NCBI GenBank assembly: GCA_003162635.1
Contig: PMNE01000030.1
Location: forward strand, 86,757 to 128,687
Source: Ignavibacteriota bacterium
Lineage (GTDB): Bacteria; Bacteroidota; Ignavibacteria; UBA10030; UBA6906
DNA: 41,931 nucleotides
Direction: 5' to 3'
The notes beneath the pieces were generated by a model. That model was not told where the DNA came from. It made no database searches and was given only the letters and a program-made list of their open reading frames with translations. Positions 8,808 through 29,463 of this stretch are shown here, one piece after another; the stretch's first letter is position 1, and each line of letters starts with the position of its first letter. Position numbers and translations under genes: made by a program.

Positions 8808-9461
8808 TCAGAGCTCCTTGATCAGCTTGACCACCTTCCAGATGAAGTTGACGTCCCGCTTCCTTACCGTCACCGGATCGAACTCCGGGTTCAGCGGAAT
8901 GAGATGAATATAGTTCCCCTCGAGCTTCACCTTCTTCAGCGTATCCTCGTCGTTCACACGAATAACGCAGATATCGCCGCTTCTCGCTTCCGCCTGGGGA
9001 CTGACCACGACGATATCCCCGTCTTCGATCCGCGGCGCCATGCTGTTCCCCTTCACTTTCAGGGCGAACGCTCCCGAATCCTTCACATCGTCGACTGTTA
9101 CATAATCGTCAACGTAGTCGGGGTGAAACATTGTCGCCACCTTGCCCGCGGGAACGGAGGAGATCACGGGAAGCTCTGCGCGACGCATGTTCCGGCGGCG
9201 ATGCGACGGGGATAGTTCGTACATGTTCGCAGGACGGGCCGGAGACGGGTACATTTCACCATCCCCCGTGAGAAGCCACGTGGGTTGGACGTTGGTCACC
9301 CGGGCGATCGTCGTGATCGCAACTCCGTCAGGTACCTGGTCTCCCCGTTCCCATCGCTGCAGCGTGCGGGTCACCACGCCGATCTTCGCGGCGAGTGTCG
9401 CCTGGTCCATTTCCTTCCTTTCCCTTGCACTCCGGAGCCGGTCGCCAATCGTTTCTTTCAT
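8808..9461 (-). CDS. XRE-HTH/S24 (LexA/CI-like) autoproteolytic transcriptional repressor
   Basis: Start at MKETIGDRL. N-terminal HTH (QATLAAKIGVVTRTLQRWERGDQVPDG); VPAGKV putative Ala-Gly cleavage site; GNSMAPRIEDGDIVVV (Ser) and EDTLKKVK (Lys) S24 catalytic dyad. Confidence 0.92.
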   Translation of the reverse strand: MKETIGDRLRSARERKEMDQATLAAKIGVVTRTLQRWERGDQVPDGVAITTIARVTNVQPTWLLTGDGEMYPSPARPANMYELSPSHRRRNMRRAELPVISSVPAGKVATMFHPDYVDDYVTVDDVKDSGAFALKVKGNSMAPRIEDGDIVVVSPQAEARSGDICVIRVNDEDTLKKVKLEGNYIHLIPLNPEFDPVTVRKRDVNFIWKVVKLIKEL

Positions 9462-9472
9462 GATTACCCCGT

Positions 9473-9486
9473 CGACAATTATGTCC
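9473..9486. promoter_or_regulatory. Putative operator copy 1: CGACAATTATGTCC
   Basis: 12-bp palindrome-like GACA-ATTA-TGTC between divergent repressor and DUF72 genes; matches copy 2 at 12 of 14 positions. Confidence 0.6.
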
Positions 9487-9495
9487 ACTTTGCAC

Positions 9496-9524
9496 TTGAC
9501 AAGACGACAAATATGTCGTATTTT
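9496..9524 (+). promoter_or_regulatory. Putative sigma70-like promoter for DUF72 gene (TTGACA-N17-TATTTT)
   Basis: TTGACA at 9496-9501, TATTTT at 9519-9524, 17-bp spacer, upstream of the start codon at 9583. Confidence 0.6.
9504..9519. promoter_or_regulatory. Putative operator copy 2: ACGACAAATATGTCGT
   Basis: Perfect 6-bp inverted repeat (ACGACA/TGTCGT) with 4-bp spacer, located between a -35 and a -10 element. Confidence 0.68.
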
Positions 9525-9582
9525 CTCGGAGGCAATGTACGGAAATTCAGAGCGTCTGTCAAGCACTTTTTACGGAGGAAGT

Positions 9583-10497
9583 ATGGAGCGTGAGGGGACG
9601 GTTTTCGCCATCGGGACGGGAGGCTGGGAGCACGAAGTGTTCGATCACTGCTTTTATCCGCGGCCCGGAATGAGTTCGGCAGAGAAATTAGAATTCTACT
9701 CCCGCTATTTCTCGGCGACGGAAGTGCGGGCGACGTTCTGGGACGACCGGTTGACGGCAAAGGATGCGCGCGAGTGGGCTGAAGCCGTCCGTGGCAGGAG
9801 CGGCTTTGAGTTCAACCTGAAACTCCACTCCTCGTTTACGCACACACGGACGATCCGCCCCGAGGCCTCGCGGGGCGTGAGGGGCATGCTGCAGGAACTT
9901 TCGCGTCACAGCCGGCTCGGTTCGCTGTTGATCCAGTTTCCATACTCGTTCACCAACACGGGCGGAAATCGTTACCATCTCGTCCGCCTTGCGGAATCGT
10001 TTGCGGGATTTCCGCTCCACGTAGAATTCCGGCATGAATCATGGCACTTCAGCGGCCTGATGAATTTCCTGAAGGAAAACGGACTCGATATCGTCAGTGC
10101 CGACATCCCCCGGATCAGACGATACATGCCATTCATGGCAGGCACGGCAGGAGATGCGGCATACCTTCGGCTCCACGGGAGGAATGAAAAGGGATGGCTC
10201 CTGAACGGCTACGATGCGCGTTACGACTATCTTTACAATACGCGGGAGATACGTGAGCTCGGCAAGCGTCTCGACGCACTCACGCCGCGTTGCCGGAAGG
10301 CGACAGTCATCGCCAATAACAGCACGGGAGGGAAATCGATCCCTCTTGCCTTTCAATTGCAGGCGATTGTCAGAGAGGGGAAGCCGGTTCCCGTGCCGGC
10401 AGAATCGCTGAACGCCTTTCCCTTTCTTCGCCAGGTCGCGCAGCCGGAAACGGCGGAACCGCTCCTCTTGGATACAAACATCCGCAGCGCTGTGTAG
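9583..10497 (+). CDS. DUF72 (YecE-like TIM-barrel) family protein
   Basis: Start ATG at 9583 preceded by ACGGAGGAA. IGTGGWEH..FYPRPGMSSAEKLEFYSRYFSATEVRATFW, FEFNLKLHSSFTH, LLIQFPYSF, HVEFRHESW, YLRLHGR: DUF72 motifs. Confidence 0.9.
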   Translation: MEREGTVFAIGTGGWEHEVFDHCFYPRPGMSSAEKLEFYSRYFSATEVRATFWDDRLTAKDAREWAEAVRGRSGFEFNLKLHSSFTHTRTIRPEASRGVRGMLQELSRHSRLGSLLIQFPYSFTNTGGNRYHLVRLAESFAGFPLHVEFRHESWHFSGLMNFLKENGLDIVSADIPRIRRYMPFMAGTAGDAAYLRLHGRNEKGWLLNGYDARYDYLYNTREIRELGKRLDALTPRCRKATVIANNSTGGKSIPLAFQLQAIVREGKPVPVPAESLNAFPFLRQVAQPETAEPLLLDTNIRSAV

Positions 10498-28986: not shown

Positions 28987-29463
28987 CTACCAGCCCTTGG
29001 CGTTGCGCAGCCCCATGATATGTCCGACATGTTTGTCGCCGTGTCCCGCATACGTCTGCAACTGGCTTTCCAGCGTAATGCTCCCTCGTTCCGGATGGCT
29101 TGCTGTCCGCACCCACCCACCATCCGCGACGCCCCTGAGCAGGTGGTACCACCGGTCGTGGAGTCCGCGGAGGATCTCAAGTGAAACACCGATCGGCATG
29201 CCGGCGGCGTCGGGCATTGTTGCCCAGACGTCCTGGTCATACGGTTTCAGGTGAGGGTTCTCTTCCGCAAGGGTGAGTTTCATGCGGATGAATGCATTCA
29301 TATGCGAATCAGCCAGGTGGTGCACCACCTGCCGCACCGTCCATCCCCCTTCACGATAGGGCGTATCAAGCTGTTTGTCGTTCAGTCCCCGCACCGCCTC
29401 CTCCAGCGCCGCCGGCAGATCACGGATCCGCTCGATTTTCCTGTCACGTTCCTCCGGTGTCAT
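28987..29463 (-). CDS. DinB/YfiT-family putative metal-dependent hydrolase (bacillithiol transferase-like)
   Basis: TPYREGGWTVRQVVHHLADSHMNAFIRMKL and QTYAGHGDKHVGHI supply the conserved His ligands of YfiT-like proteins. Confidence 0.88.
   Translation of the reverse strand: MTPEERDRKIERIRDLPAALEEAVRGLNDKQLDTPYREGGWTVRQVVHHLADSHMNAFIRMKLTLAEENPHLKPYDQDVWATMPDAAGMPIGVSLEILRGLHDRWYHLLRGVADGGWVRTASHPERGSITLESQLQTYAGHGDKHVGHIMGLRNAKGW

Follow-up and report, generated by a model that had tools for sequence, protein, structure and literature searches.

A conserved operator pair shared by a phage-type S24 repressor, a DUF72 gene and a PolB2 mutasome suggests a LexA-equivalent switch in Ignavibacteria

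The stretch of Ignavibacteriota DNA analysed here (the window; 41,931 nt, with positions counted from its first letter) contains an intergenic region between a repressor gene of the S24/XRE type and a DUF72 gene. The repressor gene lies on the minus strand (8808-9461, ATG at 9461) and codes for 217 aa, while the DUF72 gene, preceded by a GGAGGA ribosome-binding site, lies on the plus strand (9583-10497) and encodes a member of the TIM-barrel family PF01904. Both assignments had been proposed in an earlier reading made from the letters of the window (the sequence-only reading) and agree with the Pfam matches (PF00717 with E=1e-26 together with HTH_3 for the repressor; PF01904 with E=4e-42 for the DUF72 protein). 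Two short palindromes, with no strand of their own, are located between the genes. O1, the one farther upstream of DUF72, spans 9473-9486 (CGACAATTATGTCC; core GACAATTATGTC at 9474-9485), and O2, a perfect CGACAAATATGTCG, spans 9505-9518 (core 9506-9517). They are identical in 12 of 14 letters and their centres are 32 bp apart (core starts 9474 and 9506), exactly as had been noticed before. The earlier description of both copies as palindromic holds for the core GACA-N4-TGTC; in O1 the outermost C/G pair is broken and the centre is asymmetric. The core common to both copies is GACA-W4-TGTC. No RNA element was detected in the intergenic region at Rfam thresholds.

O2 falls within the 17-bp spacer (9502-9518) of the plus-strand promoter TTGACA-N17-TATTTT directed toward DUF72, in agreement with the sequence-only reading. 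The -35 hexamer of this promoter (9496-9501) is invariant in the alignment of orthologous regions, and its -10 hexamer (9519-9524) reads TATCTT or TATGTT in relatives. A minus-strand CATAAT in O1, formerly taken for the -10 of the repressor gene, is not conserved. The conserved repressor promoter, as read from the sequence and the ortholog alignment, is TTGACA-N17-TACATT on the minus strand to the right of O2, with its -35 at 9562-9557 and its -10 at 9539-9534 (TATATT or TATCTT in orthologs). The plus-strand alignment to the right of O2 accordingly displays an invariant TGTCAAG, the complement of this -35, and a conserved AATaTA. Transcription of the repressor gene would start near 9527, placing O2 at roughly +9 to +22 of its transcript. 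Since the two promoters thus overlap, a single occupied O2 could block both genes.

The regulon was sought genome-wide by pattern searches. Perfect ACGACAWWWWTGTCGT sites occur only twice in the 3.1-Mb genome, once in the S24/DUF72 region and once at C67:50238-50253 within TTGACAAGACGACAAATTTGTCGTATGAT, where a partner site, GACATAAATGTT, is found 32 bp upstream. This second operator precedes three genes, coding for proteins of 263 and 97 aa and for a family-B polymerase of 763 aa. The polymerase (PF00136, E=7e-33) has archaeal PolBs as its closest solved structures, and its motif C reads DCM instead of DTD, so that the DxD is broken. Relatives possess MGRTVPTFTM... proteins to which the 97-aa protein shows 82% identity; the N-terminal MGRT is a mark of PPB2. 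The AlphaFold model of the 263-aa protein (pLDDT 83) has the RadA/Rad51 fold with RAD51, RadA and Dmc1 as best PDB matches, and no Walker A motif (GxxxxGKT) is present in its sequences. Judging by these sequences and the fold model, the operon encodes an iRadA-PPB2-PolB2 translesion mutasome. It shares with the mutasome described in PMC11791011 the gene order, the MGRT of PPB2, the inactive RadA fold, the broken DxD of PolB2 and a clamp-like QGSLFD C-terminus; the PolB2 at L266:3839-6130 ends in QGSLFDP, which resembles a beta-clamp binding motif. In that paper, which makes no mention of Ignavibacteria, lexA and DUF72 genes were found enriched near polB2 as a matter of neighbourhood, whereas here a common operator links PolB2, DUF72 and the repressor.

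We also inspected the remaining GACA-W4-TGTC sites of the genome (one on contig C20, two on C62) and a number of sites with two mismatches; all of them lie inside open reading frames (ORFs), and the visible regulon of this genome therefore consists of two promoter regions. One perfect CGACA-N4-TGTCG palindrome of the window, CGACATGTTTGTCG at 29025-29038, likewise falls within an ORF and seems to be a chance occurrence.

Might O1 and O2 themselves be repeats that arose by chance in this AT-rich gap between genes? Counted within the window, loosely matching motifs are barely above chance (9 against 3.25 expected, at two mismatches or fewer). Since this enrichment is mild, the case for operators rests on comparison with relatives, whose genomes are largely draft assemblies (metagenome-assembled genomes, MAGs). 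An ortholog of the S24 repressor is present in 20 of the 21 genomes of the family, with 68-81% identity. The orthologous upstream regions retain TTGACA, O2 and TAT-NTT toward DUF72, and O1 is kept in nearly all of them, so the footprinting suggested by the sequence-only reading favours its two sites. The composite unit TTGACA-N3-CGACA-N4-TGTCG-TAT is found at S24/DUF72 in all 20 family genomes that possess S24 (exact, with one mismatch in G017) and at the PolB2/DinB cassette in 19 of the 21 (exact, with one mismatch in G015). Among the 21 S24/DUF72 promoters compared, two of which are the same promoter of G008, the O1-O2 distance is 32 bp in 19, 31 bp in one and 33 bp in one; of 17 cassette-type promoters in the family, 14 have a second site at a distance of 31 or 32 bp. 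A spacing of about three helical turns is thus a conserved feature. Conservation, spacing and placement of the sites in the genome rule out the chance explanation, to which we assign a practically negligible probability. In terms of sequence, O1 and O2 are conserved, functional-looking palindromes.

The genes accompanying the operator vary in arrangement. DUF72 adjoins S24 in the S24 loci of the family, and dinB stands ahead of the iRadA-PPB2-PolB2 cassette in several family genomes. In relatives from the same order, DUF72 is found under an operator of its own, unlinked to S24 (L195, L197), and in two genomes (G051, G143) S24 adjoins the PolB2 cassette. In several cassettes (L115, L267, L277, L278), dinB and iRadA are separated by a second DUF72-like gene, which is diverged. 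Several other genes were encountered behind the operator: directly downstream of it, in two genomes, a charged, possibly coiled-coil protein of about 63 aa with no Pfam family (L130:2316-2546, L136:2507-2740); a MFHAPYGG... protein of about 65 aa, also with no Pfam family, which follows either directly or past a DUF72-like gene (L156, L144); and a DUF5131 (PF07505) gene adjoining S24 (L190 in G143).

Both the operator and the repressor can be followed through the class. In a sample of 149 genomes, the TTGACA-operator-TAT unit (at most one mismatch) was found in 14 of the 16 genomes with an S24 ortholog (E < 1e-79) and in none of the 133 without one (Fisher p = 7e-18). About 0.2 chance matches are expected in the whole sample, and the reversed pattern used as control gave none. 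Because the genomes are related, the p value overstates their independence; the pattern nonetheless spans four families. The two S24-bearing exceptions (L203, L204) still carry GACA-W4-TGTC upstream of S24. As the pairing of site and protein is one of association, a different regulator might bind GACA-W4-TGTC, with the S24 gene as merely one of its targets. This explanation has little probability in our view: besides the co-occurrence just described, the placement of the operator at the repressor gene, and hence its predicted autoregulation, is retained in four families despite changed neighbours, and the turn-recognition region of the helix-turn-helix (HTH), TRTLQRWEKGEQVPD, is almost constant across the families that retain the operator.

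The repressor consists of a CI-type HTH (residues 5-65), a linker and an S24 autoprotease domain (98-210), and is the sole PF00717 protein of the genome, which is 98% complete. Aligned with E. coli LexA, its C-terminal domain shows Ala105-Gly106 as the presumed cleavage site, and Ser140 and Lys176 correspond to Ser119 and Lys156. The cleavage site and Ser/Lys dyad pointed out by the sequence-only reading are therefore in place, and Gly106, Ser140 and Lys176 are invariant in 30 of 30 orthologs. In the structure model the N-terminal domain comprises five helices and no wing, and the C-terminus ends in a strand (204-214, pLDDT 80-89) with no helix after the S24 domain; the arrangement of the domains is unreliable in view of an overall pTM of 0.50.

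Such a protein could be the CI repressor of a prophage or defective prophage, its operators forming a lysis-lysogeny switch. The CI-type HTH fits this explanation, as do a match to phage repressor family phrog_4 over the full length (E=2e-43) and the many phage CI repressors that are about 30% identical, also over the full length. The flanking genes are, however, cellular (polyphosphate kinase, aminotransferase, DUF1015, histidine kinase), the ortholog kept by 20 of the 21 family genomes neighbours DUF72 rather than phage genes, and the same operator elsewhere sits on a DNA polymerase operon. We conclude that phage origin of the repressor is likely and that a present-day phage function is not; the prophage explanation as a whole appears very improbable. 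Nearly all of the named relatives in which the protein was found are Ignavibacteria(e) MAGs; one record is labelled Bradyrhizobiaceae.

We wondered whether the repressor occupies the place of LexA. Of the 21 family genomes, 20 lack canonical LexA (PF01726), the one studied here among them, while it is present in a sister family within the order and in other families of the class; in the latter (L212-L223) its gene has an upstream box like GTACACTATATTTGTAGTGAACA. The S24 repressor resembles canonical LexA in its S24 domain with Ala-Gly and the equivalents of Ser119/Lys156, as well as in its predicted control of an error-prone polymerase and of itself, and differs from it in having a CI-type HTH in place of the winged HTH PF01726 and in its operator. 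Comparable, too, are the non-canonical LexA proteins of Bacteroidetes (PMC8565304), SOS regulators composed of S24 and a CI-type HTH, which bind GGA-N5-TCC or CTAA-N5-TTAG, often at two sites per promoter, and carry an extra C-terminal helix. The all-helical CI-type HTH joined to S24 is common to both groups, and so, as predicted here, are autoregulation, translesion polymerases as targets and paired sites. On the other hand, the modelled S24 protein lacks the extra helix, its predicted regulon is centred on PolB2 without recA, and its operator is GACA-N4-TGTC: neither Bacteroidetes motif was found in 11 S24 promoters of order relatives, and family promoters have GACA-N4-TGTC. By its letters, this operator is unlike the published non-canonical LexA motifs. 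Ignavibacteria are not mentioned in the text of PMC8565304, and a search of the open-licence literature, in which few subscription journals are covered, brought up nothing on LexA or SOS in Ignavibacteria beyond a few hits that contain both words and appear incidental. Recruitment of phage-type S24 repressors for the cellular damage response is also represented by HdiR of Lactococcus and by FddR, a Francisella phage repressor with a similar role (PMC13148647). The repressor described here differs from these two in belonging to the conserved core genes of several families within one order and in having an operator of its own.

Taken together, the region is, with high probability, the autoregulatory centre of a DNA-damage switch that is equivalent to LexA and acts on S24, DUF72 and the PolB2 operon. 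The repressor itself is very probably a LexA-equivalent, and it appears that a phage-type S24 repressor replaced LexA in this order of Ignavibacteria. The LexA/CI-style switch on DUF72 imagined in the sequence-only reading is thereby supported at the level of sequence, with a predicted regulon that is wider, since it also includes the PolB2 mutasome. A dimer of the S24/XRE protein would bind GACA-W4-TGTC, and two dimers 32 bp apart, about three turns, would cover both overlapping promoters, perhaps cooperatively, so that one complex represses S24 and DUF72. A second pair of dimers with equal spacing would cover the promoter of the iRadA-PPB2-PolB2 operon. When DNA is damaged, RecA filaments would cause S24 to cleave itself at the Ala105/Gly106 bond by Ser140/Lys176 chemistry; the dimers would then be released, and the PolB2 mutasome, DUF72 and the repressor would be produced. 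In this order, the phage CI-type repressor would occupy the place that canonical LexA has in sister families.

Several observations weigh against this interpretation. Position 105 is Gly in 7 of 30 orthologs, all from family f2 of the order (L202, L206-L210), which gives a Gly-Gly bond. Second sites vary: O1 is degenerate in G002 and G003, and a few cassettes have no clear partner site. One family genome, G018, holds canonical LexA besides the phage-type S24 repressor (L225), a coexistence that possibly represents an intermediate or a later gain. Finally, recA has no operator within 350 bp upstream (18 genomes), unlike in most SOS systems. The scan upstream of SOS genes proposed earlier thus succeeded for the translesion genes PolB2 and DinB and failed for recA. 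The predicted regulon is small, with the repressor itself, DUF72 and the PolB2 mutasome inside and recA outside. Functional SOS networks in which LexA does not regulate recA do exist (PMC13148647).

The position of recA also bears on the nature of the signal. An S24-cleavage switch might answer a stress other than DNA damage, with PolB2 as one output, and a ChrR-like cupin gene under the operator in one genome (L149/L199 in G003) would suit such a role. HdiR, too, responds to heat as well. The conserved core targets are nevertheless translesion synthesis proteins (the PolB2 complex and DinB), and to our knowledge the S24 switches of such shape characterised so far respond to RecA-single-stranded DNA. 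A signal other than DNA damage is for these reasons unlikely, and a damage-responsive repressor that controls translesion polymerases and itself, as predicted from operator placement, is preferred.

A more specific proposal, which we put forward tentatively as quite possible, is that an independent capture of a CI-type repressor replaced LexA and runs a minimal SOS response made up of an archaeal-derived PolB2 mutasome and DUF72, the latter being a TIM-barrel repair enzyme that is induced by damage and acts together with PolB2. Since DUF72 shares a conserved operator with the translesion polymerase complex, a concrete damage-response hypothesis can be formulated for this widespread family of unknown function, which likely has its place in the DNA-damage response. 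Bacterial PolB2 mutasomes, previously connected with lexA by gene neighbourhood only, obtain a candidate regulator and operator. The S24 repressor is apparently another case of a phage-type repressor standing in for LexA, and because sister lineages still carry LexA, its replacement may be studied within one order.
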